From the IMG/VR virus record IMGVR_UViG_3300002460_000019, positions 9,659 to 31,323 of that record: 21,665 nt of DNA, one strand, 5' to 3'. Below are positions 3,117-19,568 of this stretch, piece after piece. The position numbers and the translations under genes are program-made. Origin of the DNA: a virus. Position 1 is the first letter of the stretch. Each line of letters begins with the position of its first letter. Below the pieces are notes generated by a model, which worked only from the letters and a program-made list of their open reading frames with translations, was not told where the DNA came from and did no database searches.

Positions 3117-3689
3117 TTATACGGGTTTTGTGTCCCAAAATCGACTTCTTGATGGATAAGCCATCCACCACTTTGCATTACCCTTTTTGAACTCTCGTGC
3201 CATAATGCGAATACACTTGGCGGGGTCATTTAGGCACTCGTCTTTGTCCTTAAACGTTGCTCCCTTGCCTATCCAAAACGGAACACCTTGCTTGTTCTTT
3301 CCGTCATTAAACTGACAAATTCCCCAATCAGTTGTTCCGTTTTTGTTGTTTGCGTTTACCGTCCAAGCGTTCCACCCACTTTCCCCGGCGATTGTGGCTT
3401 GCAAATCTCTCATCATGGATACCGACAACCCTTCTTCCTTGCACACTTTCTCCGCGAGGTCATACATGTCCAGTCGTTCGTGTAATGGCCCGCCTCGCCA
3501 TCCGTCATCATGAAATACTACTTTTGGTTCAGGTGAGACAGGAGGAACAACGACAGGATAATCAGGAACGATTACGGGTGGCACAAAATCTGGGTGTGCT
3601 GGGTCTTTCGCGGGATCGTAGGTGAAGTGCTTAACCAAAAAATCCTTAATCGCCAGTAGTGCTTGTTCGAGGAGTTTTAACTGCTTCAT
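3117..3689 (-). CDS. Lysozyme-like / transglycosylase-like endolysin
   Basis: The 190-residue protein has a helical N-terminus (residues 1-22), a Pro/Val-rich linker (about 31-57) and a C-terminal lysozyme-fold domain. The A-G-E103-S-G-W-N motif supplies the likely catalytic glutamate, and G-T-T-D-W-G-I-C-Q-F-N (118-128) matches the second conserved block of lytic transglycosylases and related lysozymes; W-W-M-A-Y lies near the end. It would cleave peptidoglycan glycan strands, either at lysis or from the virion. There is no signal peptide, so release would need a holin, and a candidate lies two genes downstream. HNH endonuclease genes sit on both sides. No wall-binding domain is recognisable unless the N-terminal helix serves that role. 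Confidence 0.82.
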   Translation of the reverse strand: MKQLKLLEQALLAIKDFLVKHFTYDPAKDPAHPDFVPPVIVPDYPVVVPPVSPEPKVVFHDDGWRGGPLHERLDMYDLAEKVCKEEGLSVSMMRDLQATIAGESGWNAWTVNANNKNGTTDWGICQFNDGKNKQGVPFWIGKGATFKDKDECLNDPAKCIRIMAREFKKGNAKWWMAYPSRSRFWDTKPV

Positions 3690-5227: not shown

Positions 5228-5571
5228 GGCCTATGCTGAAACTTATTAAACCAAATTCTTGCGTCGGTAAATATCTCTTTATTGTAGCTCAAAAATGAAC
5301 CAAGATGCCCCACTCCTCGATGATGATTCAGTGTTCCCAAACCTTCGCATAACCATAAAACATTCGTAACATCGAGTTCCATTGATGGGTCTACACTGAA
5401 AGGGGTCACGTGGTGGAGTTGACTTTTTTTATTTCCACAGATGGCACATTGTTTCGGACAACTCTTTTCAAAGTCTCTTTTGAACTTCCCCCAAGAGCCA
5501 GACCTCGCCATGCCTCCAAGTCTGTCGCTTTCAAACAATCGCTCCCAGAGATTTTGCAGGAATTCAACCAC
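5224..5571 (-). CDS. Small HNH endonuclease
   Basis: The 115-residue protein has C42-x2-C45, L-H53-H54-V-T-P, L-D-V-T-N70-V-L-W-L-C75, N-H83-H84 and G-V-G-H89-L-G-S-F, ending D-A-R-I-W-F-N-K. This matches a compact phage HNH family whose members end with a G-H-L-G and S-Y-N block. I place the start at GTG 5571 because homologs as I recall them have a short hydrophobic/basic N-terminal extension; ATG 5511 (M-A-R-S-G-S-W) is the alternative. Its stop overlaps the next ATG. It may be a terminase-associated nicking HNH or a mobile endonuclease; I cannot separate these. Confidence 0.78.
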   Translation of the reverse strand: MVEFLQNLWERLFESDRLGGMARSGSWGKFKRDFEKSCPKQCAICGNKKSQLHHVTPFSVDPSMELDVTNVLWLCEGLGTLNHHRGVGHLGSFLSYNKEIFTDARIWFNKFQHRP

Positions 5572-5690: not shown

Positions 5691-5942
5691 TTATTTGACA
5701 GAACGTTGGAGTAACGTCTTTATATCTGCTTTTATTTCAGAGTTGTCCTTTTTTATCGTATCGACCGCTTCAACGACTGTCGCAATCTGTTTATCTTGCG
5801 TTATGTTTATACTCCTTGTTTCTTTTGCTAATTCTTCAGTTCCCGCCGCGAGTATGCGGTTTTGCACAAACCAACCCCCGACAGCAGAAAGAATAATACC
5901 GACGGCAACCGAGCTGGAGATGATAATATTGCCTCGGCTCAT
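5691..5942 (-). CDS. Membrane-anchored coiled-coil protein (83 aa)
   Basis: From ATG 5942 the protein has a short polar N-terminus, one membrane segment (about residues 5-25, I-I-I-S-S-S-V-A-V-G-I-I-L), then a charged helix with heptad-like spacing to the end. The ATG overlaps the preceding TGA as ATGA, which is why I reject a longer frame reaching 6044 inside the neighbouring gene. Small N-anchored coiled coils of this kind are common next to phage lysis genes and resemble holin-accessory or spanin-like proteins; the role is not proven. Confidence 0.65.
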   Translation of the reverse strand: MSRGNIIISSSVAVGIILSAVGGWFVQNRILAAGTEELAKETRSINITQDKQIATVVEAVDTIKKDNSEIKADIKTLLQRSVK

Positions 5943-6865
5943 ACAGTGAAAATTTCCTTTTTGTAAAACAAACGAATCATGCCAAAGATGATTAACTGGT
6001 CGGTGCTTGGTGGAGCCGGAACAGCAAGCGCAACCGGTGTCCATGTCCCGCTTGAACGAAACTCAAGGACGATATTTCCGCCATCGGATATTTGATTAAC
6101 CCGCGAACCTGTATACGTCGTTGAGCCGTAGTCTGCGCTGACATAAGAAATGATATAAACTCCCGATCCGGTCGATACACCTGCATTACCATTTCTCGGC
6201 CCATACGCACCACAGCCCGAGTTTGCTTCTACACTATCATCAGCAAGTAAAACGCACGGTGCGCCCATAACTCCTACCCCACTTGCGTCTGTTGAAGCTC
6301 CACCGCCCGCTCGTGTTGTTGAAGTTCCTGTTATGGAAGAAGCTGTCCCATCTCCACCATCACGAGCTGCGTCTGTCGCTCCAGCCTCTGTTGCGCCTCC
6401 ACCGGGGCCGCCTTGGGCAGTTGCGCTTGCTCCTGCATCAAATCCTTGAGACGGAGAACCCACTGCTGGCCCTGCTGCTCCCGAATTAGCCGCTCCTCCA
6501 CCACCGCTTCCTCCTTGAAGTCCTGCGACATTTGACGGGGTTGTATTTCCATAGGCACCACCCCCTCCGCCATGACAATCGAATAAAGTCCCCATTGAAG
6601 TCGTAGCTCCTGTGGTGCCCATATTATTACCCGCCGCCCCTGAAGCTCCGGCTGCGCCAATGGTAATGGTGTATTCTGTGTCTGCGACAACAGTAAGAGC
6701 GGTATCGGAACGATAACCCCCTGCGCCCCCCGCGCCCGCATAAGAAGGGGAGCCGTTTGATCCACCACCACCTCCTCCGCCGCCGACACACAAAGCATTT
6801 ATTGTAAGTGCAGAAGCAAAGAATGGCAAGAAAAGCGCTATGATGATGAGGAGTTTTTTCATCAT
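5939..6865 (-). CDS. Exported glycine-rich tail/adhesin-like protein
   Basis: The 308-residue product starts with tandem ATG codons (6865 and 6862) and a classical signal peptide (M-M-K-K, a hydrophobic core, then A-S-A near residues 17-19). The body is a glycine-rich domain: V-G-G-G-G-G-G-G-G near 28-35, then G-A-G-G-A-G-G-Y-R-S and E-Y-T-I-T-I-G-A-A-G (about 43-76), the pattern of glycine-rich fibre tips. The C-terminal 70 residues return to strand-rich sequence. Glycine-rich sandwiches serve receptor binding in phage fibres; a Sec signal on such a protein is unusual and suggests display on the host envelope or an atypical virion. It overlaps both neighbours by ATGA, so translation is probably coupled. 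Confidence 0.68.
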   Translation of the reverse strand: MMKKLLIIIALFLPFFASALTINALCVGGGGGGGGSNGSPSYAGAGGAGGYRSDTALTVVADTEYTITIGAAGASGAAGNNMGTTGATTSMGTLFDCHGGGGGAYGNTTPSNVAGLQGGSGGGGAANSGAAGPAVGSPSQGFDAGASATAQGGPGGGATEAGATDAARDGGDGTASSITGTSTTRAGGGASTDASGVGVMGAPCVLLADDSVEANSGCGAYGPRNGNAGVSTGSGVYIISYVSADYGSTTYTGSRVNQISDGGNIVLEFRSSGTWTPVALAVPAPPSTDQLIIFGMIRLFYKKEIFTV

Positions 6866-7347
6866 CTTGATGTAGGGATTATATCTTTGGTAAGTGGATC
6901 AACCCAGCGAGCTTTTTGTTCGTTAAACTCAACAACTCCTGTTGGTTTTGGAGGAATAAAAGCGTTGAGGGTTCTGTCATAAATGTATCCTATTCCAGCG
7001 TAGTTCTTCCTAAGAGAGCCGTCGGGTTTTGTTTCTACCCAATTCTTCGGATCGCCCCACTTGCCAGTCGCAAGGTCTTTTTCACTGATGACGATGACGC
7101 GCAAAACAATTCCTTTGACATCTATCTCTGCAAAAAGAGATGGTTTATTACTCAAAACAGCGCCAAGTTTCGTAACCATCTTTTTGTTGACAATCTTGTT
7201 GACAATTGGTTTTACGGTATCAATTCGTTCAATGGTGAACTCTTTTTGTTCAATGTTTGGGAGTGGAACATGGCGAAAGTGCGGATAGGTCGGAACAGGA
7301 TTCACCCACAGAATGATTGCGAGAAAGAATGGGGCAAGGAAGTCCAT
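6862..7347 (-). CDS. Membrane-anchored protein with a cyanophage-like virion domain
   Basis: From ATG 7347 the 161-residue protein has an immediate hydrophobic anchor (residues 2-15), a Pro-rich stretch, a charged linker and a C-terminal domain (about 71-150) with I-V-L-R-V-I-V-I, W-G-D-P-K-N-W-V-E-T, R-K-N-Y-A-G-I-G-Y-I-Y-D, A-F-I-P-P-K-P and a late R-W-V-D-P. I recognise that block order from small structural proteins of marine and cyanobacterial phages; its exact role there is unclear to me. A longer start at 7371 would overlap the upstream gene by 19 nt; 7347 lies 5 nt after that stop and brings the anchor to the N-terminus. Confidence 0.62.
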   Translation of the reverse strand: MDFLAPFFLAIILWVNPVPTYPHFRHVPLPNIEQKEFTIERIDTVKPIVNKIVNKKMVTKLGAVLSNKPSLFAEIDVKGIVLRVIVISEKDLATGKWGDPKNWVETKPDGSLRKNYAGIGYIYDRTLNAFIPPKPTGVVEFNEQKARWVDPLTKDIIPTSR

Positions 7348-7352
7348 ATATT

Positions 7353-8549
7353 TTAATGACTCCACGAACATGATGGGTCGGTGACTGTGCCCGCTGCCGA
7401 ACCGATGTCAAACCAGAATGATTCTCCCGAGGTAAAGGTATTATTTGCACTGATAGTAGTAAACGTAACAGAGAGTCCGGCAGAAGATAAAACTGCCGTA
7501 GTTGATGAGGTACTGTCTCCAAGTTGGGCGACAAATGTTCCTCCGTTTCTATTGGTACAACCAATGTCAGTAATCGTTACGGGTGTTTTCCATCCAGCGA
7601 CCTTGAGAGTCGTCGTTCCGCTCCCCATCGTGGATGTGGAAAAAACGAATGCTCTGTCCGTGCTTGTCGCCGCACCATAAACTAAACCTGCTTGGGAAAC
7701 GGCAAGTACTGATGATGTGATTGACGGAATTGTTATTGTGCCAAGATTTATTGTTTGGAATGTTGAAGAGGCTGTGCTCATAATGCCTCCAGAAAAGTCT
7801 ATGAGGGTGCTTGTAGAGACTCCGGTAAAGGTAGTTGCCGTAGTGAAAGGATAACCAAATATCGCGCAAGTTGAACAAGAAATCGTGTCATCAGTAAGAA
7901 CTATCGGAGAAGTTACTGCAAGGTTGGTATCATCGGAAATATCCAAACCGGAAACGTCTGCAGTGCTCACCGTAGCGCAAGTGGCGGCCCCGAGAGCGGA
8001 CAATGAGCGCACGAATTGATTAGTACACGAAGTCCCTGCATAAGCCGCAAATACTCCATTTCCATTTGTCAGCGTTAATGCGCTCGCAATGCTAGGAATC
8101 GCAAGCGTAGTGATGGTGGATGAGGCCGAATTGAAGTATTGAATAGTTGAAGAGCCTATGGACATGAGGCCATTGGTAAAAGCGACAAGGGTAGACGTGG
8201 AAACTCCCGTAAAACTCGTCTGTTGGGTAAAGGGCCATTGAGCGGTGGAACAAGCTGTACATTCTATTACTGCACCGCTTGTGCCAAGAATGACTGGACT
8301 GTTAGAAACAGTAACGGGTGAAGTCGCCGTGAGCGTGGAAGTAGCACGATTGGCTACCGTGTTTACCCCAGAAAAATACAAAAGATTGCCTGATACCGCT
8401 GCAGTTGATGTAGAAATTGCATTACCAAAATTAGCATTGATAACACTGCGTGAGGCTGTGAGCGTATCTGTTCCCAGCATTGTGGTAAAACTTCCACCAA
8501 TGGCTGTAAAAGGGGCCAAGAATAGGGCTAGTAATATGAGTTTTTTCAT
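7353..8549 (-). CDS. Exported Ser/Thr-rich repeat fibre-like protein
   Basis: The 398-residue protein has a signal peptide (M-K-K-L-I-L-L-A-L-F-L, cleavage likely near A-I-G-G-S at 16-20) and an overwhelmingly Ser/Thr/Ala/Gly body. Two related copies of a roughly 90-residue unit occupy about 73-172 and 210-296, sharing T-S-P-V/I, C-x2-C, P-F-T, F-T-G-V-S-T-S-T-L, S-S-T and I-P-S-I. The C-terminal 100 residues look like a separate beta domain with three cysteines (331, 394 and nearby pattern W-S-H at the end). It resembles phage fibres of candidate-phylum metagenomes. ATG 8549 is preferred over an upstream TTG because it puts the signal peptide first. Confidence 0.68.
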   Translation of the reverse strand: MKKLILLALFLAPFTAIGGSFTTMLGTDTLTASRSVINANFGNAISTSTAAVSGNLLYFSGVNTVANRATSTLTATSPVTVSNSPVILGTSGAVIECTACSTAQWPFTQQTSFTGVSTSTLVAFTNGLMSIGSSTIQYFNSASSTITTLAIPSIASALTLTNGNGVFAAYAGTSCTNQFVRSLSALGAATCATVSTADVSGLDISDDTNLAVTSPIVLTDDTISCSTCAIFGYPFTTATTFTGVSTSTLIDFSGGIMSTASSTFQTINLGTITIPSITSSVLAVSQAGLVYGAATSTDRAFVFSTSTMGSGTTTLKVAGWKTPVTITDIGCTNRNGGTFVAQLGDSTSSTTAVLSSAGLSVTFTTISANNTFTSGESFWFDIGSAAGTVTDPSCSWSH

Positions 8550-8586
8550 GTTTGACAATTATTAAGGGTTATGATAAGATGGGGGA

Positions 8587-8673
8587 ATGATAATCTTTTT
8601 TACTATTTGTGTAACTGCTTTTATTACCTGTTTGCTGATTGCATCGATTTATGAATCTAAAATAGAAGATTAA
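8587..8673 (+). CDS. Possible 28-aa plus-strand membrane peptide
   Basis: An ATG-started frame fills the only gap in this part of the minus-strand operon. The product is a single hydrophobic helix (F-F-T-I-C-V-T-A-F-I-T-C-L-L-I-A) with a short charged tail. A G-rich run lies directly before the ATG. It points against all neighbours and its stop overlaps the end of the large minus-strand gene by a few bases. It may be chance; listed because it exactly fills the intergenic space. Confidence 0.2.
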   Translation: MIIFFTICVTAFITCLLIASIYESKIED

Positions 8674-10220
8674 TCTTTGTATTCATTAAGCAATCCCTGA
8701 ATGTATGCCTTATCCACGGGTGTAAGCAGTTTTTCTCCGCTTTGCAGTAATTTGCCCAGGGCGATTCTCACTTCGGGTTTTAAGACAAGTTTTCCCGCTT
8801 TATATAATACAAAACCTGCGCCACCTACTAATACCACTGCTGGGGCGAATGTCGCCGCCGCGCCAAGTCCTCCAATTCCGGCAGCAGCCGCAATAGCTTG
8901 AACAATTTTGTTTTTTGTTCCAAGTATTTGTCCAATCTTTTGGAATTTTCTCATTATCGCCGTGTTCGCTTCTTCAGCCGCTTTTGGTGCGATATTGTCC
9001 ATTGCGTCAAACAGTGCATGTTGTTTTGCCAGAGACGTTTTCACGCCAGCAGTAGGAGCTTTTTCATCAAGTAAATTTTTGAATGTATTCCTCACCTCAC
9101 GATTAGCAAGAGTAAAAGCATTATCTACATTAGCATCAAAGGTTTTAGGTTTTTGACTAAGCACCCAAGCATCATATTCTTTTTTTGCCTTGAGCAAACC
9201 TGAACCTGTGCTGGGATTTTCATTGACTATTTTTATAGCACCATCAAGCAATCTTCCTGCTGTAGTTTGAGCATCTCCAACAATGGTCGGGCTTAATGCC
9301 AGTTTTTCTTGCGCCCTTTTTAAGCGACTGATGGTTTCTCTGCGAGGAAGGGCAAAATCATTAGCGGCAACAGCCATTTTCAGATTTTGCGCCTCAACTT
9401 TATTAGCCGCTTGAACAATTGAATAATTCTTTTGATAGGTATTTTTAGAAGATATTTGAGGAATTTCCTGAACCGCATTTGCCATGTTTTTCTCTGCAAC
9501 AGTCAACTCAACTATATCTTTTTTGAATAATCCCTTTTCGGTTGTCCTTGCAACCTCCGCCTCACGAACTGCTTTTGTTTGTACTGGTCTTGTCAGTTCA
9601 CGAGCAAATGCTTTCTTTTGTGCTACTGCCGATGAAATCCCCGATATTTCAAGGGCCTTTCCTGTTATGATGCCTCCCTTTGCGGCACCTTTTCCAAGTA
9701 ATTGCGCTCCCTTTCCGACAGGAAGAATCGAACCCAACAATCCTGTTGCCTCAAGGTTGGCCGCCGCTTCTGGGTGTTGTGCCTTGAATTGTCCATACTT
9801 TTCGGCTATAACTTGCGCAGTATCAGTTTCTGCTATCTTTTTGGCTCCAGCTCCAACTGCGCTACCAACAGCTTTTTCAATAAACTTTGGAGTAAGAGCT
9901 TTGAGTCCGGCAAAAGCAATGTCTCCTACGGCCCCTGCACCCTGTCCAAGCACTTGAAGGCCAGCACTAAATTTCGATTGTTCTCCGCGTTGAGCAGAAA
10001 GTATTGCTTCCGAACCTTTTTCTGCTCTTTTAGATAAATCAGCAGAAAGACCAGTTTTTTCTACGGCAAAATCTGTTATCTGGTCTTTATATACGGGATA
10101 TTTTGCGACAATCCTTTTTGCCAATTCCCCATCATCCATTTGTGCGTAAGAAATACCATCGGATGCCACTCCGGAAGGAAATTTGATTCGTATTTTCTGC
10201 GCAAATTCCTGTGTTGTCAT
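8670..10220 (-). CDS. Large probable internal virion / DNA-ejection protein
   Basis: The 516-residue protein begins with a segment rich in short helices (E-F-A-Q-K-I-R-I-K-F-P, then D-D-G-E-L-A-K-R-I-V and K-Y-P-V-Y-K-D) that I associate with tail-associated or internal proteins of podoviruses. The middle is Ala/Lys-rich and helical. A long glycine/alanine-rich hydrophobic stretch at about 439-476 could insert in a membrane, followed by a charged C-terminus. This fits proteins that leave the capsid during infection and form a conduit across the envelope. The ATG overlaps the stop of the 605-residue neighbour (ATGA), so the two are probably made together. No enzymatic motif is seen. Confidence 0.6.
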   Translation of the reverse strand: MTTQEFAQKIRIKFPSGVASDGISYAQMDDGELAKRIVAKYPVYKDQITDFAVEKTGLSADLSKRAEKGSEAILSAQRGEQSKFSAGLQVLGQGAGAVGDIAFAGLKALTPKFIEKAVGSAVGAGAKKIAETDTAQVIAEKYGQFKAQHPEAAANLEATGLLGSILPVGKGAQLLGKGAAKGGIITGKALEISGISSAVAQKKAFARELTRPVQTKAVREAEVARTTEKGLFKKDIVELTVAEKNMANAVQEIPQISSKNTYQKNYSIVQAANKVEAQNLKMAVAANDFALPRRETISRLKRAQEKLALSPTIVGDAQTTAGRLLDGAIKIVNENPSTGSGLLKAKKEYDAWVLSQKPKTFDANVDNAFTLANREVRNTFKNLLDEKAPTAGVKTSLAKQHALFDAMDNIAPKAAEEANTAIMRKFQKIGQILGTKNKIVQAIAAAAGIGGLGAAATFAPAVVLVGGAGFVLYKAGKLVLKPEVRIALGKLLQSGEKLLTPVDKAYIQGLLNEYKD

Positions 10221-12034
10221 ATTCCTAGTGGATTAGCAGTTGTAACTCCACTTCCTGAAGATAATCCAAGTGGATCATTACCAGTTCCCAATAATTCATC
10301 AACAGATTGGTAAGCGTTTCCTGCGGCAGTTCTTAGAGAGGCATATACCAAGTCTCTATTGGCCTTTTTTTGCACAAGAACCTCAACAGAATCTCCCGGT
10401 TGAGGAAGATATTGTTGTCTTGCTTCGGAAAATTCGGTAGCTGAAATAACTGCACCAGATTCACGACGAAGTTTGGCATTGATAAAGTTCCGAGCTGCTT
10501 GCACATATTGTTGTATATCTGAAGATTGGAAAGCCGCCGGAAGATTGATTTGAGACAAAAATGATGCAAGGTTCATTCCAACGATATTCGCCTCTTGCGT
10601 TTGTATAATCGGATTCGCCTGTTCTATTCTCGCCGCATATTCTGCTACAGTCTGTTGTGCGACAGTTGGCACCTTAACATTGGAATCTTTAAGCCATTGC
10701 TCATAAGTTCCGGGTTTTCCCGCAAGTTCCCATTCTTTGTAGCTCATTGGCGCATCAGCAGTTACTGCGCCCGCAATCACCGCTTTCTCACTCGACACCC
10801 CATATCTCGTCGCAACTTGAGCAACACCTAAAGCTGTCGTCGCCTTACCCATTTCCTGAAGAATGGCGGAACCATTGGGAAGCTGTGAAAGCGCATTTAC
10901 ATATTTCAGCATTTCCGTCTCGGCGCCCTTTGTGTTTTCCTCCTGTCGCGTGATGGCTTTTTCCCGTGCGTCCAGTATGGCTTTCTGTGCAATCGCCCTA
11001 TCCTTGTCTTGCCTTGTCGTTTCGAGATCAGCGATAAGAAGCTCGAGATTGGACTTGGCTACTGCAATTTGTTCCTTTAATGTCCCAAATTTAAGCTCTA
11101 CAGCCCTGTCTACTGCATCTTGGGCTGTTGCTACGTTCCCCTTCGCCATTTCGAGCTGAGCGAAGATTTGGAGGCTTTTCACCGAGTTCTTTCGCAGAGC
11201 CTCCGCTTTCTGCCTTGTGTCTATGGCTGTCGTTACCCCAGCGCCAGCTTCCTGAGTTTGCGCTTGAATGTTCGCCGCTTCAAGTTGAGAGACTTTAAGC
11301 TGAGAAGAAAGGTCATTCTGCAAACGGGTTAATTCAGGAAGGTTGGTAGCTTGTCCTTGCTCCGCTCGATAGGCCCCTTCACCAACAAGTCCCTGTTGCT
11401 GTTTTCTGATTGCTTCTGTCTCTGCACTTATCTTCGCTTCTTGAGGGGTGGCGGCAAGAGGTTCATATCCGGGAACTGAGGCCGAACCTCCTAAAGGAGT
11501 AGGGGCAGGGGTATAAGCTGGCGTAGTTCCCGTGCCGATATTTGCGCTTGAAAGAGGTGTAGTGGGAGGATTGCCGATTGCCGTTGCTCCTGAAGGAAGA
11601 TTAAAAGTAGCAAGGCGAGCATTATATTTATCTATTGTTTCTCCTGGTTGGAGAAAATATCTTGTGTCTACGGGGTTTTGCGCTTGAGCAGAGGCAAGAT
11701 TGGAGGCAGAGAGAGCCGCTTCTTGGGCTTGGCCTTCAGGAGTGCCCCTTTGGTACTCAGCAAAAGTTTGAGGACGACCTGTTTTAAGGTTTGATACATA
11801 ACCGCTCGGAGTATCAGCTTGGGCGGCTCGTAAAGAATCCGCAAGAGCTTTCGAGTAGCCACTGCCCTCTACGAGTCCTCTTTGTTGATAGCCTCCTATA
11901 ATCCCTCCGACATCAGAAATATACTGTTCACGGCTCAGTTCCGTACCATATACATCTTGTTGTCCATATGGAGTGGCAAAGTAGAGGTCGCCAGACTTGT
12001 AGTATTTTTGTTTGAGTTGTTCGGGAGTTGCCAT
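10217..12034 (-). CDS. Large coiled-coil probable virion/ejection protein
   Basis: The 605-residue product starts with an aromatic-rich region (K-Y-Y-K-S-G-D-L-Y-F-A-T-P-Y), then a Pro/Thr-rich low-complexity linker (about 150-200), then a long predicted coiled coil (about 225-375, rich in Gln, Lys, Glu and Ala), and finally a Gln/Ala-rich helical C-terminus ending S-G-S-G-V-T-T-A-N-P. Location between the fibre gene and the membrane-inserting partner suggests an ejection or internal core protein. It begins a transcription/translation unit of its own: an extended -10 element lies 8 nt before the ATG. I do not recognise a named family. Confidence 0.6.
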   Translation of the reverse strand: MATPEQLKQKYYKSGDLYFATPYGQQDVYGTELSREQYISDVGGIIGGYQQRGLVEGSGYSKALADSLRAAQADTPSGYVSNLKTGRPQTFAEYQRGTPEGQAQEAALSASNLASAQAQNPVDTRYFLQPGETIDKYNARLATFNLPSGATAIGNPPTTPLSSANIGTGTTPAYTPAPTPLGGSASVPGYEPLAATPQEAKISAETEAIRKQQQGLVGEGAYRAEQGQATNLPELTRLQNDLSSQLKVSQLEAANIQAQTQEAGAGVTTAIDTRQKAEALRKNSVKSLQIFAQLEMAKGNVATAQDAVDRAVELKFGTLKEQIAVAKSNLELLIADLETTRQDKDRAIAQKAILDAREKAITRQEENTKGAETEMLKYVNALSQLPNGSAILQEMGKATTALGVAQVATRYGVSSEKAVIAGAVTADAPMSYKEWELAGKPGTYEQWLKDSNVKVPTVAQQTVAEYAARIEQANPIIQTQEANIVGMNLASFLSQINLPAAFQSSDIQQYVQAARNFINAKLRRESGAVISATEFSEARQQYLPQPGDSVEVLVQKKANRDLVYASLRTAAGNAYQSVDELLGTGNDPLGLSSGSGVTTANPLGI

Positions 12035-12042
12035 GTTAAGTA

Positions 12043-12051
12043 ATTATACCA
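12043..12051 (-). promoter_or_regulatory. Extended -10 promoter candidate before the coiled-coil gene
   Basis: The minus strand reads TGG-TATAAT, an extended -10 element, in the 25-nt gap after the glycine-rich fibre gene. Only 8 nt separate it from the ATG, so a transcript would be almost leaderless. No -35 is visible. The same 11-mer TATGGTATAAT occurs at 19290-19300. Confidence 0.4.
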
Positions 12052-12059
12052 TAATAAAA

Positions 12060-13262
12060 TCAGAACGTGTTTAACATTCTTACTGCGATTCCATCAGCTC
12101 CTGCTCCGCCGGCACCACCATTGATTGTGGAAAACACAGCCCCTGCTATTCCTGCTGCTTCAGTGGTTCCCGCTCCTCCACCACCATAGCCACCGACAGC
12201 ACCAGAACCGCCTGTTCCTGTTCCTCCCGCGCCGCCAGAACCACCAGTAACGGTGTATGTTCCTGAATCTGCTGTGAGTGTATTGTAAACCGCGAGATAC
12301 ATTCCTCCTGCTCCTCCACCTCCTCCGCCGCCGCCGCCAGTAATACTTCCATTTGTTCCTGCTGTTCCTGTTGCACCACTCAAATCAATTGTTCCTGTGA
12401 CATTGTAAGCACCAGCAACTTCGATAAGTGATGCTCCTGCTCCTCTGCCACCACCCCCTCCTGCGCCACCATTATCGGAAGTTCCACCTCCACCTTCTCC
12501 ACCTCCACCACCTGCACCAGGAATGATTGATCTTCCTAAATAACGGACATATTCTGTGGTACGGGCATAAAACATTTGCGCTATGGTTATCTGCGCCCCC
12601 ACAGCTCCTCCTGCATTGCTGTTCTCAAAATCTCCTCCTCCTCCGTAATGAGCAGAAGCATCAAAAATTGCAAAACTATTTGTCCCATTTCCTCCATCTT
12701 CACCTGTTGGTGTTGCACCAGCGCCTCCTGATCCAGCAGTTGCACCCAAAGAGCGATAATCTATAGCTCGTGTTGCCGTTGAAGTAATTGTTACATCCCC
12801 TTGAGATTTTAAGATGATTACTGTTCCACCAGAATATGGATTGGAAAACGCCAAACCTCCGGTTCCAGTGATAGAAATTGACGTGTAGTTTTTTGTTACC
12901 AGAGGGGCATTTTCCAAATCTATCGTTGTTGTTCCCGAAGAAATAGTGAGCGCACCGTCAGCACCAGTTCCTCCGATGTTCACAATCGTCTGTGAAATCG
13001 CCACAGTAGAGGCAACCATTTTCCCCGCATCATCTACACGAAACGGAGCTGTAGCTCTATCGGGGAATAATTTACCCGCCCAAAAACGAATATCAGTCGT
13101 TGCCGTTCCTGCGCCGGACATCCCCGCCTTTCTTGCAACGAATTTGTCCGCGATACTGCGAGCAGAAAGCGGATTACTTCCCAGCCTTCGGGAAATATCA
13201 AAACCCATATCTTCTATCTCCCCTTTGAGTACATCAATCTGTGCTTGGAGTTCTTCATTCAT
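12060..13262 (-). CDS. Glycine-rich tail fibre / receptor-binding protein
   Basis: The 400-residue protein opens with a short coiled coil (N-E-E-L-Q-A-Q-I-D-V-L-K-G-E-I), probably the attachment or trimerisation part, then a conserved-looking D-I-R-F-W-A-G and F-R-V-D-D-A-G-K block, strand-rich sequence, and three glycine-rich clusters (about 190-225, 255-285 and 310-365) with runs of up to nine Gly. The pattern fits a fibre whose tip is a polyglycine sandwich. ATG 13262 is chosen because it overlaps the preceding stop by 8 nt; upstream ATGs in the same frame lie inside that gene. Unlike the other glycine-rich protein at 5939-6865 it has no signal peptide. Confidence 0.7.
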   Translation of the reverse strand: MNEELQAQIDVLKGEIEDMGFDISRRLGSNPLSARSIADKFVARKAGMSGAGTATTDIRFWAGKLFPDRATAPFRVDDAGKMVASTVAISQTIVNIGGTGADGALTISSGTTTIDLENAPLVTKNYTSISITGTGGLAFSNPYSGGTVIILKSQGDVTITSTATRAIDYRSLGATAGSGGAGATPTGEDGGNGTNSFAIFDASAHYGGGGDFENSNAGGAVGAQITIAQMFYARTTEYVRYLGRSIIPGAGGGGGEGGGGTSDNGGAGGGGGRGAGASLIEVAGAYNVTGTIDLSGATGTAGTNGSITGGGGGGGGGAGGMYLAVYNTLTADSGTYTVTGGSGGAGGTGTGGSGAVGGYGGGGAGTTEAAGIAGAVFSTINGGAGGAGADGIAVRMLNTF

Positions 13263-14820
13263 AAAGGTCATCGGGAATATCCTCATAAACAAAAGAAAAA
13301 GATGTTATCTCCGCGTTCCCCGTGGATTCAATACGAAACTGTATTTCTCGATAAGTCGGCAAGGTAGCCCCGGAGCTTTCAATGTTAATCGCCGAATGAG
13401 AAAGGGAGTTATCCGTTGTATGAGTAAAAATGGTGGTAAAAGTCGTCTCTTCGTCTTTGAGATACTTCAGAACAACCGAGCCTGCGGTGGGAAGAAAAAC
13501 ATGATTTACTGTTACGCCAATCAATTTTTTCTTCTGTTTGGGGTTGCCGAACTTTAAGGATTCATAGATAGAAGTAAAAGTGAAGTTTGTGCCATCATCA
13601 GTTTTTGTCACTTTCCCCGCACTTTCAGCCGAGTGGGAAATAAACCAATAATTCCCTGCATTGCCAAAGGAATTGATGAAGTAGTTTGATGTATCCACTC
13701 CTTCTTCGACAAAATCCAAAGCGAGGCCGAAATTGCCGTTTTTATTCTTCCTGCCGAATGCCCATATTCCTAGATGAAAAGTAGACTCCGTAGAAGTGGA
13801 ATTGTGAAATGGAACGGAAGCAACCCAATACATCTTGTTATCTTTAATAACGACATTTCGGGGAAAACGAGTTACCGTATCGGGAAAAGCGGTTGCGTCT
13901 GCGGTAACGCTCTGATTAGCCACAATCTCTTTATAGACAGTAGGAACTCCGCCCGCCCACATACGAACTACCATTGCGCCCTTCGTAATCCCCAGGGTTG
14001 ATGTGAGGTATTTATCGGATACCCCGACAACCCTCCCTTCGACATTCCCTAGAACACGGAGCGCACCTTCGCCCCAATCAATCACATCGGAAACCGTCGT
14101 ATCTGTTACCATATCCCAGATAAAGACCTGAGAGCGGCCGGAAGGCTTCGTAATATTCGATGTTCCATACGCACAGCCGATGGCGATATAAGACCCATAA
14201 CGACACGCGGAAACAATACGCATATCAGAAGGAATCTGCGTCATTACATTGTCGGTAACAACCGAAGCTGAAGAAACCTTTACTACTCTGTTATTGTAAA
14301 AAAGATACAGATTATTATCCGAACCCACCACTCCTTGAGCCACTGAGGTTATTGTTGCACCTAAGGCTCCTGTAACGGTATTCGTAAACGTCGAGCCGAT
14401 AACCCATTTTGATACATTTGTTGTTCCCGAAAACATCCACCACGCTGATTGCCACTCAATGAAACATCCCCGAATCAAAGCACTGGTGCCTTCTGCCGTG
14501 CTTTCGATAGTCCAGTTACCCGTTGTCGGGTCTGCTTTAGAGAAGACTTTAGGAACCGCAGAAGCGGCCGCCCTGCCTAGACCATAGAGTTTTCCATCTA
14601 AACCAAGTTGGAAATCCTGCACACGATATTGTTCTAAGTCTGTGGAGGAAACGCTTGTCGAAGTGTCAGCTTCCGTAGAACGATAAGGGGTCAGTCTGTT
14701 TGGGGAGGAAAAAACGTCGAAATGTTTTGACATTCCAAACTGTGAGGGAATATTCGAGCGCAAATCGTCCGTCATTCCACCATCGAATCTGTTTATTTCT
14801 ACTCGATGCTGTTTTGCCAT
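13255..14820 (-). CDS. Tail nozzle-like beta-propeller protein
   Basis: The 521-residue protein starts V-E-I-N-R-F-D-G-G-M-T-D-D-L-R, a common opening for this class of tail proteins, and is composed of repeated short strands separated by turns (for example L-Y-G-L-G-R, W-W-M-F-S-G, L-Y-L-F-Y-N-N-R and Y-I-A-I-G-C), as in a beta-propeller. The T7 tail nozzle is a beta-propeller, and genes of this kind sit between the connector and the fibres in short-tailed phages, as here. Two small neighbours overlap it at either end. Direct homology to a named nozzle cannot be shown by eye. Confidence 0.62.
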   Translation of the reverse strand: MAKQHRVEINRFDGGMTDDLRSNIPSQFGMSKHFDVFSSPNRLTPYRSTEADTSTSVSSTDLEQYRVQDFQLGLDGKLYGLGRAAASAVPKVFSKADPTTGNWTIESTAEGTSALIRGCFIEWQSAWWMFSGTTNVSKWVIGSTFTNTVTGALGATITSVAQGVVGSDNNLYLFYNNRVVKVSSASVVTDNVMTQIPSDMRIVSACRYGSYIAIGCAYGTSNITKPSGRSQVFIWDMVTDTTVSDVIDWGEGALRVLGNVEGRVVGVSDKYLTSTLGITKGAMVVRMWAGGVPTVYKEIVANQSVTADATAFPDTVTRFPRNVVIKDNKMYWVASVPFHNSTSTESTFHLGIWAFGRKNKNGNFGLALDFVEEGVDTSNYFINSFGNAGNYWFISHSAESAGKVTKTDDGTNFTFTSIYESLKFGNPKQKKKLIGVTVNHVFLPTAGSVVLKYLKDEETTFTTIFTHTTDNSLSHSAINIESSGATLPTYREIQFRIESTGNAEITSFSFVYEDIPDDLYE

Positions 14821-15011
14821 CAGTTTTTCGCTTCATTTGTTAAGGTGAGAGCATTCTTTGATTCTCTCGCAAGCAACATATGCACCGAATCCCAAGTGAA
14901 TGTCGCATCATCCCACGTCATTGTTGCCTCATCCCATGTCATACTGGAAATCTTTGCCTCGTTGGTTAAGGTGAGAGAGTTCTTTGATTCTGCGGTAAGT
15001 GAAAGTGCCAT
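14820..15011 (-). CDS. Small repeat-containing structural protein (63 aa)
   Basis: The protein is two near-copies of E-S-K-N-[S/A]-L-T-L-T-N-E-A-K at its ends (residues 8-20 and 50-62) around three short copies of T-W-D-[E/D/S] (M-T-W-D-E-A-T, M-T-W-D-D-A-T, F-T-W-D-S). Small T-W-D repeat proteins occur beside connector genes in uncultured phages, as far as I recall, with no assigned role. Its stop and the next ATG share a base (TGATG), and it starts 1 nt after the connector stop. Confidence 0.6.
   Translation of the reverse strand: MALSLTAESKNSLTLTNEAKISSMTWDEATMTWDDATFTWDSVHMLLARESKNALTLTNEAKN
14839..14991 (-). repeat. Direct repeat within the small structural gene
   Basis: A 27-nt segment occurs at 14839-14865 and again at 14965-14991 with 2 mismatches, coding for the two S-K-N-x-L-T-L-T-N copies. 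Between them a 13-nt CATCCCA-C/T-GTCAT unit is also duplicated. The structure indicates recent internal duplication. Confidence 0.8.
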
Positions 15012-15012
15012 A

Positions 15013-15739
15013 TCATCGGAAGTTTATCTGTTCAGTAGTCATAAAGCGCCGACTGTCTTTTTCCCGACGACTATAAAACTTCAACATGTCATCGGTCATT
15101 TCTCTTATTTTCGCTTCAAAGATAGCGACCCTATCTTTTTTATAATTTATCGCGTAAGGCAAGGCGGCCATATACGCGACAAGCACATGATATGGAGAGG
15201 CGATACCCGGTGCTTTTGTTCCAGTCGTTACTTGTGCGGAAGTAAACAAATCAGCCGTTCTCTTAAATCCCACCTTAAGACCGGAAGAAAGAGTAACCGT
15301 CACCCCATCATCAGGGGCTGGATAAAGACGAATGGAATCTCCCTGTTTGTCGTAATAGGTAGGCAAGCCATCTGTTTCAAATATCTGTTCGAGTGGTGAT
15401 TGATATAATGCGCCGGTGTTTAATTCTGCTTGGTCTATGGGTTGTAAGTGATACCAATCTCCATTTACGTCCTTCACTTTTACCCAAAGAATATCCAAAT
15501 ACTCATCAGCGAATGAATAAGATTCTTGCCCATTTACCAAGGTACCTGTCCCAATAGGTAAATCAGAATAATTCGTATCATCATACTGCCACACCCCATC
15601 AGCATTGATTATTTTTCCAATGAGGGATTCAAGGGCGTTATTGACGAATATAAGTAAGTTGGCCGCAGTTAAAGAAGTAGTATCTGCATCCACCAAGAAA
15701 CGTGCGTAGGTATTTAGGTCAGCGATTGTAATAAGCCAT
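15013..15739 (-). CDS. Head-tail connector (adaptor) protein, apparent frameshift at its start
   Basis: The clear open frame runs from 15696 (TTG) to 15013 and encodes a 227-residue protein with V-N-N-A-L-E-S-L-I near the N-terminus, Y-D-K-Q-G-D-S-I-R-L-Y-P-A-P-D in the middle and a helical, basic C-terminus. This is the layout of phage adaptors that bind below the portal. TTG 15696 is a poor start: the same frame remains coding-like upstream as I-T-I-A-D-L-N-T-Y-A-R-F-L, back to 15732. ATG-GCT at 15734-15739 lies one base out of frame; removing T 15733 would give M-A-I-T-I-A-D-L-N. I therefore extend the gene to 15739, 10 nt after the glycosyltransferase stop, and flag it as frameshifted. 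Confidence 0.65.
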
Positions 15740-15749
15740 TGTTCGTTTA

Positions 15750-16319
15750 CTAATAAGTATATAAACCAACGTGTCCAACCTTAATTGTGGGGTCACACCA
15801 GAGATCAAAACCCGAATCTATGGCGGTGTAGCAAAACCACGCATCTTCTCCGACAACCAATTCTCCTTTTTTATCACGCCCAAAATTAAACCAGGGCAAT
15901 TTCAGTTTTTCAAAGACAGACAATTTGATGAGCAAAATCCCTGTTCCCAATAGGGCGCATTTGAACAGTTTTGTCTTTGATTCAGAAAACTCCGTCAATG
16001 GTACAGCGACTTTTTCCAAAGGAAACTTTCTCTTATGACATTGCACCCCGACAATATCTTTATCATGAGAAAGCAGTTGTTTTATCGTGTCTGAATGGAA
16101 TAACATATCCGAATCCACAAAAAGAATATGTGTCCCCCCCTTTTTTATAGCCTCATTTACTAACCATGTTCTCGCCCCGGCCACATCGCATCCTTGCCAC
16201 ATCAGAAAATCAACAATACAGGGATTCCCGATAATCGCACTGGCAATCGAGTGTCCAGTGCGGGCAACCATCATATCCGTACAAGGCATTGCGATAATGA
16301 GTTTTATTTTATCTTTCAT
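15750..16319 (-). CDS. GT-A-like glycosyltransferase
   Basis: The 189-residue protein has a Rossmann-like start (I-K-L-I-I-A-M-P-C), R-T-W-L-V-N-E-A-I, T-H-I-L-F-V-D-S-D-M with the D-x-D metal motif (about 63-72), D-I-V-G-V-Q-C-H-K-R-K, G-E-D-A-W-F-C near residue 160 (the acid position of inverting GT-A enzymes) and a late V-G-H-V-G histidine. These blocks, in this order, define small phage or bacterial GT-A enzymes that use nucleotide sugars. It lies between the capsid and the connector genes, so it may decorate a virion protein or modify the host envelope. It has no membrane segment. Confidence 0.75.
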   Translation of the reverse strand: MKDKIKLIIAMPCTDMMVARTGHSIASAIIGNPCIVDFLMWQGCDVAGARTWLVNEAIKKGGTHILFVDSDMLFHSDTIKQLLSHDKDIVGVQCHKRKFPLEKVAVPLTEFSESKTKLFKCALLGTGILLIKLSVFEKLKLPWFNFGRDKKGELVVGEDAWFCYTAIDSGFDLWCDPTIKVGHVGLYTY

Positions 16320-16341
16320 GGCGTGTTTTGCGTATCATATC

Positions 16342-16363
16342 TTGCTCCCCGAAAGAGGAGCAA
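16342..16363 (-). other. Hairpin after the capsid gene
   Basis: A 7-bp stem TTGCTCC/GGAGCAA with an 8-nt loop lies in the 63-nt gap between the capsid stop and the glycosyltransferase start. It lacks a U-tract, so it is more likely an mRNA-stabilising or attenuating structure than a full terminator; it could let capsid mRNA exceed downstream mRNA. Confidence 0.5.
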
Positions 16364-16382
16364 AGATGATGCACAATCCGAA

Positions 16383-17288
16383 TCAAACAACATTGACATC
16401 GAACACAATCGGCAAGAGGTTCGTGGGAACCAACAGACCGTAATCGAGTCGAGTGTGAATGCCTGTTCCCGAAAGCATACCCGCCGTAGAAGACGGAGGT
16501 GTTTCGGTTACATAGGTCTTTCCAAAGGTACTCTTCAGAAGTCCGAGCTTTTGCACTGCACTTACCCCTGCAAAGAGGTGATTTGCCGCGTGAGAAGTCG
16601 AGACATAATGTTTAAGACCCAGGTATTCAACTCCGATTTTTCCACCATTTTTCAGGTTAGCGTCAGCGAGATTGAATCCGTTTGACTGCATAAACTGAAC
16701 AAGAAATGTCCAGTCTTCAGGCCGCCAAACAATGAACCCACCATTCTGTTTATACAGGTCAAAACCGTTTGCGGTATAGATTTCCTCTATAACGCCGCGA
16801 ATAATGTCATCAACATTATTCGCTGAAACAGTAATGGTCGTTGACGCGAGTCCGAGGACTCCGCCACCCGTATCACCGAAGTTTGTCCAGTTGGCGTGAT
16901 TCGCCAAGAGAACTGTTTCAACACGTTCACCAATCTTCTTTCCAAGTAAATCACCCATCTGCGCATAGCTTGCGTAATTTGATTGCGCCTGATCAGCATA
17001 ATCAAGATACACAGCATCGACATCCGTGGTAATCATCCCAAGAGTTTGATTAGTCTGCGTGACGGGAATGAACGTAATGACTTTCGTCAGGTCAGTCCTT
17101 TCCGCCGCAGAAGCGAACTTACCTGTTGAAACAGCAGGTTCACCAGATGTAGCGATAAGCGGGAAATTGAGAATTTGCGTGTCACTATAAGTAACATCGC
17201 AAACCTCCTTCCATGTCTGAGGTTTATCAAGGCGTTGGGCGATTCTATTCTCCCAAAACTCCTGATAGAGATATGTACTATTAGCCAT
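16383..17288 (-). CDS. Major capsid protein
   Basis: The 301-residue product has a typical capsid layout: an N-terminal helix (Y-L-Y-Q-E-F-W-E-N-R), a long loop, an extended G-E-P-A-V-S-T-G segment, a spine-like helix (L-G-K-K-I-G-E-R-V-E-T-V-L-L) and a core domain with V-D-D-I-I-R-G-V-I-E-E-I and strands ending F-D-V-N-V-V. It directly follows a scaffold-like gene and precedes the connector, the usual morphogenesis order. The HK97 fold is inferred. The start (MANST) is preceded by an AT-rich leader without a Shine-Dalgarno sequence. No N-terminal prohead propeptide is obvious. Confidence 0.83.
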   Translation of the reverse strand: MANSTYLYQEFWENRIAQRLDKPQTWKEVCDVTYSDTQILNFPLIATSGEPAVSTGKFASAAERTDLTKVITFIPVTQTNQTLGMITTDVDAVYLDYADQAQSNYASYAQMGDLLGKKIGERVETVLLANHANWTNFGDTGGGVLGLASTTITVSANNVDDIIRGVIEEIYTANGFDLYKQNGGFIVWRPEDWTFLVQFMQSNGFNLADANLKNGGKIGVEYLGLKHYVSTSHAANHLFAGVSAVQKLGLLKSTFGKTYVTETPPSSTAGMLSGTGIHTRLDYGLLVPTNLLPIVFDVNVV

Positions 17289-17324
17289 GATTAATAAATA
17301 AACTAGTAATCAGGCGTAATTAGA

Positions 17325-17915
17325 TTAATGATGCCAGGCGGGTTTATTGGTGTTTTCTTTCTCCAATTTCCTGTTAATAACTTCGCTTCGTAATTTGAAG
17401 TCTTTTGGCAGTTCCCCCTTTTGTTCAAAACGGGCCAGCCAATAATCTGTCGTATCTATTGGCCCTCCGCTCGAACGTCTTGTCGAGCCTGGCGTCGCAT
17501 CCTTGAGTTCATTGTCTTTACGCAGGGCATTTAATTTTGTTTGGACATAATCGTCCTTGAGTGCCTGGCGGACAGTTTGACCCGTTCGTTTCATCACGTT
17601 ATGTATGAGTTCTATCTCATCGCTATCCGTAATGCCTTTGAGGTCAAGATAATCAAGTTGCGTTTCATCTAATTCGCCCTTCTTTTCTTCTAACTTCTCT
17701 TCTACTTTCTCTTCTACTTTCTTTTCTACTTTTTCTTTCAGTAGTTTTGCTTCAGCTTTCTTGGCTCGTTCAAAGAGTTGTTTGTTCGTATCTTCCGTCT
17801 CCTTGAGTTTCGCTTTGAGAGCAACCGCATCAAGTTCTTCCCCTACTGCGGTATCGAGATTCTGCTCGTCAGTGTTCTCATTTGAAGAGTCGAGATTCTC
17901 ATTTTCTTTTTCCAT
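17325..17915 (-). CDS. Capsid scaffolding protein
   Basis: The 196-residue protein is highly charged. It has an acidic, Asn/Glu-rich N-terminus (about 1-30), a long Lys/Glu coiled coil with repeated V-E-E-K and L-E-E-K (about 35-80), an ordered middle (L-D-L-K-G-I-T-D-S-D-E-I) and a basic C-terminus with W-L-A-R-F-E-Q-K-G-E-L-P. Coiled coil plus basic C-terminal segment directly upstream of the capsid gene is the standard scaffold arrangement. It would guide procapsid assembly and then leave. Start context TTAAATT-ATG is shared with two other genes. Confidence 0.75.
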   Translation of the reverse strand: MEKENENLDSSNENTDEQNLDTAVGEELDAVALKAKLKETEDTNKQLFERAKKAEAKLLKEKVEKKVEEKVEEKLEEKKGELDETQLDYLDLKGITDSDEIELIHNVMKRTGQTVRQALKDDYVQTKLNALRKDNELKDATPGSTRRSSGGPIDTTDYWLARFEQKGELPKDFKLRSEVINRKLEKENTNKPAWHH

Positions 17916-18100
17916 AATTTAAGTGTTTATGACACAACGCACTTTTAAGAGTTGTGCTACTCGATAAATAAAACCGAAAAACCGAATGTCTTGCGACACC
18001 CGGTTGGAACAACAAGAGAGAAACAACGACGAAAACTCCCTTGTGGCCCCGATCGGATGCCGCAAAACGTGTCGTTGTTTCCGCTAAGTTGTCAAAGGTC
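17916..18100 (-). other. 185-nt non-coding gap with a long-range inverted repeat
   Basis: No supported gene lies here. A perfect 11-bp inverted repeat (18020-18030 and 18071-18081, GAAACAACGAC and its complement) encloses 40 nt that contain an 8-bp palindrome CCGATCGG. The stretch precedes the scaffold start, so it would form a 5' structure on scaffold/capsid mRNA. Near-repeats AAACCGAA occur at 17970-17982. No sigma70 -10/-35 pair is convincing. Confidence 0.5.
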
Positions 18101-18643
18101 TTAGTCTGGAACAAATTCACTGACGAAAACGGTAATATGTCCTGTCCCTGTGTAACCGTTGCGATAAATGGTAATCACCGCTTCGTTCAATCCTGCAAGA
18201 ATAAGATCTGCACCCGTGGCTTCAGCAAGGAACAAGTCCGTGCTTGCGTCCACATCATCAATGGTGAGCGATGATGCAACCGTTGTAGAGGCATTCTTGA
18301 GCCGAAACGACATCTTATCTCCGACATTAGGAATATACGAAGCAGTTGATGTTGCGCCGATTTGAATCGTTACATCAACACTTGGGTTGATCTTGATGAC
18401 CTCGCTGCCTATTTCATTCGCCGTGAGCGTATAAGTCGTAAGCGTTGTTCCTGTAGTTGTCGCAAGTTCTAGTCCGCCGACCGTTACACCATCACCGAAG
18501 AACTGACGCGCAAAGGGCTGGATTCCACCCACCTCTTTTACAATAGTCTCTATCTTCTCTAACCCCGTCGGGCGAGGGAGAAAAAATCCCAAGAAACCGA
18601 CAACCACGAGAACCCCAAGTATGACCTTTAATGTTTTATCCAT
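18101..18643 (-). CDS. Membrane-anchored beta-rich virion-region protein (180 aa)
   Basis: A short cytoplasmic-type N-terminus (M-D-K-T-L-K) is followed by a hydrophobic segment (about 7-22, V-I-L-G-V-L-V-V-V-G-F-L-G-F-F), then a polar linker and a beta-rich domain from about residue 55 with repeated Thr-rich strands, ending V-F-V-S-E-F-V-P-D. The C-terminal domain resembles decoration-type or fibre beta sandwiches, but position between portal and scaffold and the N-terminal anchor do not fit a standard decoration protein. It could be exported and anchored on the host, or sit in an unusual virion. It shares the TTAAATT-ATG start context. No family recognised. Confidence 0.6.
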   Translation of the reverse strand: MDKTLKVILGVLVVVGFLGFFLPRPTGLEKIETIVKEVGGIQPFARQFFGDGVTVGGLELATTTGTTLTTYTLTANEIGSEVIKINPSVDVTIQIGATSTASYIPNVGDKMSFRLKNASTTVASSLTIDDVDASTDLFLAEATGADLILAGLNEAVITIYRNGYTGTGHITVFVSEFVPD

Positions 18644-18659
18644 AATTTAAGTTTTATGT

Positions 18660-18719
18660 TTAATAATTTCGACCTCTCTTTTTTATCTTTTTTCTTCCGT
18701 AACCTGATTTATGTGGCAT
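18660..18719 (-). CDS. 19-aa very basic peptide
   Basis: An ATG-to-TAA frame encodes a peptide beginning M-P-H-K-S-G-Y-G-R-K-K and ending R-G-R-N-Y; nine of the nineteen residues are Lys, Arg or His. It lies 5 nt after one tiny gene and 16 nt before the next, filling the gap. I recall similar unannotated tiny Gly/Lys-rich peptides beside structural genes in uncultured phages. It may bind nucleic acid or the portal interior, but that is speculation. Confidence 0.4.
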   Translation of the reverse strand: MPHKSGYGRKKIKKRGRNY

Positions 18720-18724
18720 AATCT

Positions 18725-18817
18725 TTATTTCTTTTTCTTTTCCACCTTAGCTTCGACCTTTGCTTCAGATGCCTGTTTTTCCAATTTGTCCTTTAAGGAC
18801 GGTAAGCGTTTTAACAT
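18725..18817 (-). CDS. 30-aa Lys/Glu-rich helical peptide
   Basis: The frame starts at ATG 18817, 9 nt after the previous stop, and encodes M-L-K-R-L-P-S-L-K-D-K-L-E-K followed by a Lys/Glu/Ala helix ending in K-K-K-K. Regular Lys/Glu spacing suggests an amphipathic helix. It sits in a run of closely spaced small genes between the portal and scaffold genes. Function unknown; it could be a vestigial scaffold helper. Confidence 0.4.
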   Translation of the reverse strand: MLKRLPSLKDKLEKQASEAKVEAKVEKKKK

Positions 18818-18826
18818 GATGTTTTA

Positions 18827-19267
18827 TTAATTTCTATAAGTTATCGTATAATCCCCGTCGTATCCATCGCCTGTTTCAACAACAATACCTTTGACTACTT
18901 GCACATCGTACACGAGCGTCCCTGCCGCATCGGAGGTACCCAAAACGTGTGCAATTATTTTCCCAATAGTCAGGGTGGCATTTTTCACATCATCAGTTTG
19001 ATACGTTGAGGTCGCGGTTGAGGTGGCATCATACACTTTCAGATAACCTGCTGTTCCGACTTGATTCACAATGATTGATCCGAAGATTCCACCTCCTTTC
19101 AACGCTTGATATGCCGCAGTGGTCATCACATACGCAGTCGTTGTTGAAGTGTATGCTTGACCATCGCCAATACTGCCGAGCTTCGCTGGTTGACCGACCA
19201 AACCAACAAACCATGAAGCAATGGCAAGTAAAAAGGCGGCTATTCCTAATACAATTTTGTTTTTCAT
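18827..19267 (-). CDS. Signal-peptide/anchor beta-rich protein (146 aa)
   Basis: A hydrophobic N-terminus (K-I-V-L-G-I-A-A-F-L-L-A-I-A-S-W-F-V-G-L-V-G) is followed by Thr-rich strands (T-S-T-T-T, D-A-T-S-T-A-T-S-T) and a beta domain ending D-Y-T-I-T-Y-R-N. It could be a signal anchor or a cleaved signal peptide. The similar architecture of 18101-18643 suggests a paired function, such as a surface-displayed duo. An extended -10 element lies 22 nt upstream of the ATG. Unrecognised family; a typical phage would not need an exported protein here. Confidence 0.58.
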   Translation of the reverse strand: MKNKIVLGIAAFLLAIASWFVGLVGQPAKLGSIGDGQAYTSTTTAYVMTTAAYQALKGGGIFGSIIVNQVGTAGYLKVYDATSTATSTYQTDDVKNATLTIGKIIAHVLGTSDAAGTLVYDVQVVKGIVVETGDGYDGDYTITYRN

Positions 19268-19310: not shown

Positions 19311-19568
19311 TCAACGAGCAGGGTTTACCCCTTTGGGCAAAACTACAACAGTTTTATGTTTGGCTATTTCTCTGAAGGCATCCTCGACCGCTTTGATACC
19401 GTCTAATCTTGCTCTGAATGCCTGACCGAGCGATTCGTTACTGAAATCTTGGATACTCGAAATCTGTTGATAGCTTTCTGGCATTTCAAACTGTTTCAAA
19501 ACCTCCGCTTTTACTTCATCAAAAAGAGCTTTATCATCCGCTATTCTCGTTAAAATTGATTCAGACAT
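19311..19568 (-). CDS. 85-aa protein after the portal
   Basis: The ATG lies inside the last codons of the portal gene (8-nt overlap), so translation is probably coupled. The protein is acidic-helical in its first half (D-D-K-A-L-F-D-E-V-K-A-E-V-L-K) and basic toward the end. It resembles small helical proteins found next to portals, but no family is recognised. It ends in P-A-R followed by TGA, just before the promoter-like element. Confidence 0.6.
   Translation of the reverse strand: MSESILTRIADDKALFDEVKAEVLKQFEMPESYQQISSIQDFSNESLGQAFRARLDGIKAVEDAFREIAKHKTVVVLPKGVNPAR

Follow-up and report, generated by a model that had tools for sequence, protein, structure and literature searches.

Predicted membrane anchors on cement-, spike- and fibre-type proteins encoded in the late gene block of an uncultivated tailed phage family

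The window, by which we mean the whole 21,665-nucleotide stretch of DNA that was analysed, corresponds to positions 9659-31323 of a virus record 31,323 bases long, and its late genes lie co-directionally on the minus strand throughout. They run from a portal-like gene through an 85-aa gene (19311-19568), the genes for two proteins termed A and B, a scaffold-like gene and the major capsid protein (MCP) gene to a glycosyltransferase-like gene, after which come an adaptor-like gene and more structural genes, then C, E and D, and finally a lysis-like region. Portal, scaffold and MCP were named from gene order and size alone, and none of the three matched a Pfam or PHROG family. The features under discussion are listed here in that order.

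19561..21378, minus strand: putative portal-like protein, from position and size; without an anchor
18827..19267, minus strand: protein A, N-terminal anchor and small jelly-roll body, flanked by the portal-side 85-aa gene and B
19199..19255, minus strand: predicted membrane anchor of A, residues 5-23 (hydropathy; AlphaFold helix 2-22)
18830..19165, minus strand: jelly-roll body of A, with an anchorless homologue of 84-87 aa in sister phages
18101..18643, minus strand: protein B, N-terminal anchor and beta domain of capsid-spike type, between A and scaffold
18578..18634, minus strand: predicted membrane anchor of B, residues 4-22 (hydropathy and structure model)
18104..18484, minus strand: spike-type body of B, residues 54-180 (Pa223 capsid spike match)
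17325..17915, minus strand: scaffold-like acidic protein, putative role from position and composition; without an anchor; boundary of the slot defined below
16383..17288, minus strand: putative major capsid protein, from position; without an anchor; query for gathering relatives
12060..13292, minus strand: glycine-rich fibre-like protein without any export signal, in contrast to D
7353..8549, minus strand: protein C, in which a fibre motif comes immediately after an anchor or signal and precedes a Ser/Thr-rich body
8487..8540, minus strand: hydrophobic segment of C, residues 4-21 (hydropathy)
8427..8492, minus strand: fibre motif SFTTMLGTDTLTASRSVINANF of C, anchorless in the related loci L003 and L004 and anchored in other relatives
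6862..7347, minus strand: protein E, weak N-terminal hydrophobic segment and phrog_7759 domain (residues 72-153)
5939..6865, minus strand: protein D, classical signal peptide (ASA) and Gly_rich_2 domain (PF21722, 1.9e-15; phrog_2295, 5e-26)

The lysis-like genes comprise a lysozyme-like gene (3117-3689) and small transmembrane proteins at 2273-2467 and 5691-5942, the second of which has a holin-like look and is concealed by a longer, over-extended open reading frame (5691-6044). The 31-kb record has no recognised integrase gene. The terminase at L002:758-1975 could be aligned with terminases of relatives, and that of one relative is 46.5% identical to Flavobacterium phage terminases. Several neighbouring genes are recorded here for their own sake. 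The glycosyltransferase-like gene (15750-16319; phrog_1574, 2e-24; Anp1, 2e-6) directly follows MCP and is found in several relatives too, while positions 9-629 encode YdcK-type beta-solenoid repeats (PF18836, 7e-32) with units NAWVYGNARVYG, a similar protein being present at L088:794-1387. HNH-like genes (2489-3229, 3700-4353 and 5224-5571) are dispersed over the late and lysis-like region, and those of relatives (L003:7142-7567, L007:7432-7941 and L019:9137-9787) also interrupt the portal-MCP stretch. A short protein with a signal peptide at L002:3151-3537 looks transglycosylase-like by eye, and a Pfam search with it gave no match.

Hydrophobicity was measured for every plausible gene as the best 15-residue Kyte-Doolittle mean near the N-terminus, with values above 2.0 taken as strong. 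The observation in an earlier note on this DNA was confirmed: the five genes to which it had assigned an export signal or anchor proved to be exactly the late-block genes with a strongly hydrophobic N-terminus, with means from 2.17 to 2.94 (2.67 for 5939-6865, 2.17 for 6862-7347, 2.42 for 7353-8549, 2.94 for 18101-18643 and 2.47 for 18827-19267), and all other listed genes stayed at or below 1.70 apart from the small transmembrane protein at 5691-5942. A signal or anchor is clear in four of the five genes, whereas 6862-7347 is a weaker case: E has no basic residue at its given start and no 19-residue segment above 1.6, and starting at its in-frame Met at residue 65 would keep the phrog_7759 domain intact, a domain that is present in marine phages without an anchor. 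D, whose start codon overlaps the stop of the gene for E, has n-, h- and c-regions and an ASA cleavage-like motif, and the N-termini of A, B and C look, from their sequence, like uncleaved anchors. The hydrophobic cores, whose median length is 18 residues and which are rarely joined by a second segment, have a mean hydropathy of 2.2-3.3 and mostly basic N-termini. Counts of basic residues on the N-terminal versus the other side of the segment (A, 19 versus 4, p 0.003; C, 11 versus 3; B, 15 versus 12) favour an N-in/C-out orientation for A and less clearly for C, with no such bias for B. Overall, inner or assembly-type virion proteins are mostly the ones without signals and outer-surface types the ones with them, the exception being the signal-less glycine-rich fibre-like protein.

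The structure model of A (AlphaFold, pLDDT 84) consists of a helix and a jelly roll, and its best solved matches (VIA-align) are small jelly rolls including the KHP40 and KHP30 cement proteins and the HFTV1 turret (Z 6.7-7.2 for these, the structural matches of A lying at about 7-8), so that the modelled body may be described as a jelly roll of cement or turret type, a likeness at the level of a common fold that falls short of showing homology. The best matches among viral models include tailed-phage proteins of anchorless size (86-100 aa). A haloarchaeal ChaoS9 'transmembrane domain protein' that ranked low in the same viral fold search was set aside, being encoded far from head genes and having a different N-terminal layout. 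Anchored homologues of A occur in about 34 non-redundant related genomes, and the 84-87 aa protein that sister phages encode without an anchor could be aligned with anchored A over 75 columns (hhalign 93.3%, E 2.8e-7).

For B, the model (pLDDT 74) superimposed on the Pa223 capsid spike (PDB 9ny6) with Z 10.6 and an rmsd of 2.5 over 100 residues, followed by baseplate and tailspike parts and T4 gp9. Homologues of B differ between anchor and head, four of them having collagen repeats there and one (L074:8400-9110) a signal peptide followed by PG_binding_1 (PF01471, 3.2e-11), and of the independent signs that the body is located beyond the membrane this peptidoglycan-binding variant is the best. 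Some matches to B were taken as chance: a weak PADLOC match to a restriction enzyme, a PDB sequence search that returned almost only antibody light chains, and matches of the B profile in four weak genomes of the small-genome phylum considered below, 4/5 of which fell on the anchor end of the model. Two of these profile loci (L100 and L102), when read, held unrelated proteins after a similar N-terminus.

C was tested as a tail fibre and has the fibre start motif and repeats, with no significant match in named phages. Residue 24 of C is an in-frame Met, near the point at which its anchorless homologues start. The anchored fibre form is present in 13 other loci with an anchored slot and in 0/4 with an anchorless or empty one; linked switching of fibre and slot anchors would be suggestive (14/17 versus 0/4, p 0.006), and since the tree gives 1-2 independent pairs we do not claim it. 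More long fibre-like proteins with signal peptides are located towards the end of the structural block of relatives (L037:19269-20888, L074:19390-20835, L079:18420-19814 and L089:18084-21173).

Viral relatives were gathered with an MCP query (5 loci), a portal query (3) and an MCP alignment (80), and removal of MCPs more than 97% identical left 60 relatives. Searches of named phages with MCP, portal, fibre and glycine-rich protein gave no match in 50,697 records, which left no cultivated relative that could be used, and neither the MCP profile against GTDB contigs nor the window's own fibre and glycine-rich proteins against viral contigs returned relatives. The slot, which reaches from the small gene beside the portal to the scaffold gene, was read and classified by hand. 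At least two anchored proteins occupy it in 33 genomes (30 of the 60, together with the window, L008 and L009), one anchored protein in 6, only anchorless proteins in 8 and none in 9, the stretch being incomplete in the rest. The two anchored genes that the earlier note had placed between portal and scaffold, where it expected no export, are thus members of conserved families, encoded with the head genes in the window and relatives alike. An automatic count over the related loci found an anchored N-terminus in 60/85 slot genes versus 27/640 other genes (odds ratio 54, p 4e-46, the p value being inflated by related sequences).

The same note had named homologues without hydrophobic N-termini as evidence against its claim, and such homologues do exist, namely of the A domain, of the fibre motif and of the E domain. 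They come from other genomes, in which they replace the anchored form, and this points to swapping and not to mis-annotation. No classified genome carries an anchored A or B beside an anchorless A, and in L068 anchored A adjoins an unrelated unanchored protein. Most members of both main branches of the MCP tree are anchored, and the tree calls for at least 7 switches between the anchored and the unanchored state. Because the slot of close relatives holds anchorless decoration-type proteins or nothing, its product looks dispensable for capsid assembly and looks to have changed place more than once.

The host is possibly a member of the Patescibacteria. TerL relatives were found in metagenome-assembled genomes (MAGs) of four assignments (uncultured bacterium, Elusimicrobia, Nanoarchaeia and Rhizobiales), a spread of labels that makes binning errors likely. 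The phylum of the uncultured-bacterium MAG has small genomes, with ribosomal protein L30 missing in 24/25. Absence of L30 is a criterion for Patescibacteria, so small genomes without it fit that group. MCP matched 2/380 genomes of this phylum, and MCP searches of the phyla of the Nanoarchaeia and Elusimicrobia MAGs gave only the centre itself, or nothing. The episymbiont host raised by the earlier note is therefore weakly indicated, with TerL in a small-genome MAG speaking for it and the few MCP matches and the TerL matches in other phyla against it. Start codons of the window and related loci give a weak host clue: Shine-Dalgarno sequences are nearly absent (5% versus 3% in shuffled sequence), T stands at -1 in 60% of ATG starts and TATAAT near the start in 6-10%, a context that resembles some small-genome loci more than it does Flavobacterium phage Fpv5. 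As a separate observation, large proteins at L104-L109, L114, L116 and L117 (from the small-genome phylum of G001) have, by eye, a MerR-type helix-turn-helix start and continue with GTIxTGxWNGTxI...YGGTGxT repeats as in phage fibres, an odd combination.

Taken together, we tentatively favour, at somewhat less than an even chance, the reading that in this family of uncultivated tailed phages proteins with folds of outer-surface type carry anchors and are displayed on the envelope of the infected cell, where they occupy phage receptors. The interpretation in the earlier note is partly supported: among the roles that it had offered, display on the host envelope is the best supported, by anchors conserved in divergent genomes, bodies of outer-surface type and the peptidoglycan-binding homologue of B. 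We infer export, orientation, timing and use, as follows, from N-termini that were observed and are conserved, from the folds, and from the way in which anchorless versions take the place of anchored ones. A (cement/turret-like), B (capsid-spike), C (tail-fibre-type) and D (glycine-rich fibre-type) would be translated with an N-terminal anchor or signal peptide and would enter or cross the cytoplasmic membrane, leaving the N-terminus inside and the body outside. Late in infection the bodies would be shown on the envelope and occupy the phage's own receptors, both on the infected cell and on its debris, keeping incoming phages and released progeny from adsorbing there. Export is likely because a B homologue joins a signal to a peptidoglycan-binding domain and others have collagen-like stalks, while blocking of receptors is the probable role, for which folds and late position are the whole basis. 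The folds are probably used in virions of the family too, as the anchorless versions in sister phages would simply decorate virions.

Other readings of the anchors have to be set against this one. It is unlikely, in our estimate, that the anchored proteins are true virion parts, with capsids assembled in the cytoplasm taking up A, B and C together with a membrane, or at one, to give a membrane-associated or wrapped tailed virion. Such a virion would account for anchors on outer-surface but not inner proteins and for the substitution of soluble decoration-type proteins in the same slot of close relatives, and B with its stalk and anchor has the layout of an envelope spike, but the lysis-like genes (3117-3689, 2273-2467 and 5691-5942) point to release by lysis and the layout lacks precedent, none being found in a literature search; we know of no enveloped member of the Caudoviricetes. 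That the whole outer surface set of cement, spike and fibre is made as membrane proteins and ends on the virion, with a repeated switch to soluble forms in sister lineages, we regard as a slim prospect. Nor does it seem likely that these are cytoplasmic decoration or fibre proteins whose hydrophobic N-terminus either serves as a helix for docking or trimerisation or is cut off by a protease: anchorless orthologues, presumably virion decoration, and the charge pattern of B, which gives no clear N-in signal, would suit this, yet segments of such length and hydropathy behind mostly basic N-termini are of the kind that export machinery recognises, they precede several unrelated bodies, and in one homologue of B the signal is followed by a peptidoglycan-binding domain, D adding a classical cleavage motif.

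Partial mis-annotation, with 6862-7347 and 7353-8549 starting downstream as soluble fibre-region proteins and only A, B and D exported, appears improbable. Met 65 just before the domain of the former and Met 24 of the latter would permit it, whereas the fibre motif is anchored in the 13 other anchored-slot loci and a start at residue 24 would lose conserved SFTT residues. Highly doubtful, finally, is service to the host, in which the displayed proteins would help an episymbiotic, Patescibacteria-like host adhere to its partner cell. It has been proposed that phages of Patescibacteria carry surface-adhesion genes of lectin-like type (PMC12911398), and both the related TerL in a MAG of the small-genome, L30-less phylum and the recurrence of fibre-type repeats in large proteins of that phylum would agree with it, but these genes belong to the late virion block, which is expressed before lysis, the lack of a recognised integrase and the scarcity of MCP matches speak against it, and TerL matches extend to MAGs of other phyla. 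Display on the infected cell remains the reading with the fewest new assumptions.

Surface proteins of tailed phages are taken to be cytoplasmic, and to our knowledge no tailed phage displays proteins of capsid-spike, cement or fibre type on the infected cell; a literature search likewise found no paper on anchored capsid or fibre proteins. Either infected cells are coated with mimics of the phage surface, an arrangement that would be new for exclusion or adhesion, or the making of a tailed virion can include a membrane step, and because anchorless relatives with the same gene slot offer a natural comparison, the question is testable.

Compared with known virion proteins, A has a body similar to the jelly roll of the KHP30/KHP40 cement and HFTV1 turret proteins, and the anchorless A of sister phages has a suitable size and position for such a protein, but A itself is anchored. 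B shares the fold of its body with the C-terminal domain of the capsid spike of Pseudomonas phage Pa223 and is likewise encoded in the head-gene region; it differs from that spike in its N-terminal membrane anchor, the two being about 13% identical, and it has no recognised capsid-binding part. Capsid spikes and decoration proteins are expected to be soluble and free of export signals, and A and B depart from this with hydropathies (2.47 and 2.94) that are kept in relatives. C has the motif of anchorless tail fibres that start T-x-x-GTDxITxSRxxINxNF (L003, L004, L012, L013 and L023), with an anchor ahead of it, and in most anchored fibre forms the region after the motif is of GTWNGTAI...GGTGTT type. 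As exported or membrane-anchored phage proteins, judged from sequence alone, the set also resembles superinfection-exclusion proteins, although PADLOC, Pfam and PHROGs gave no match to an exclusion or defence family and no lipobox was seen. T5 Llp, lambdoid Cor and lactococcal Ltp/Sie2009 are phage surface proteins that mask receptors or exclude superinfection; they are phage-encoded, exported and located on the envelope of the infected cell, and the same would be expected of the proteins described here. Those are small dedicated lipoproteins or membrane proteins, whereas the bodies encoded in the window have capsid-spike, cement and fibre folds and lie within the head and tail gene block.
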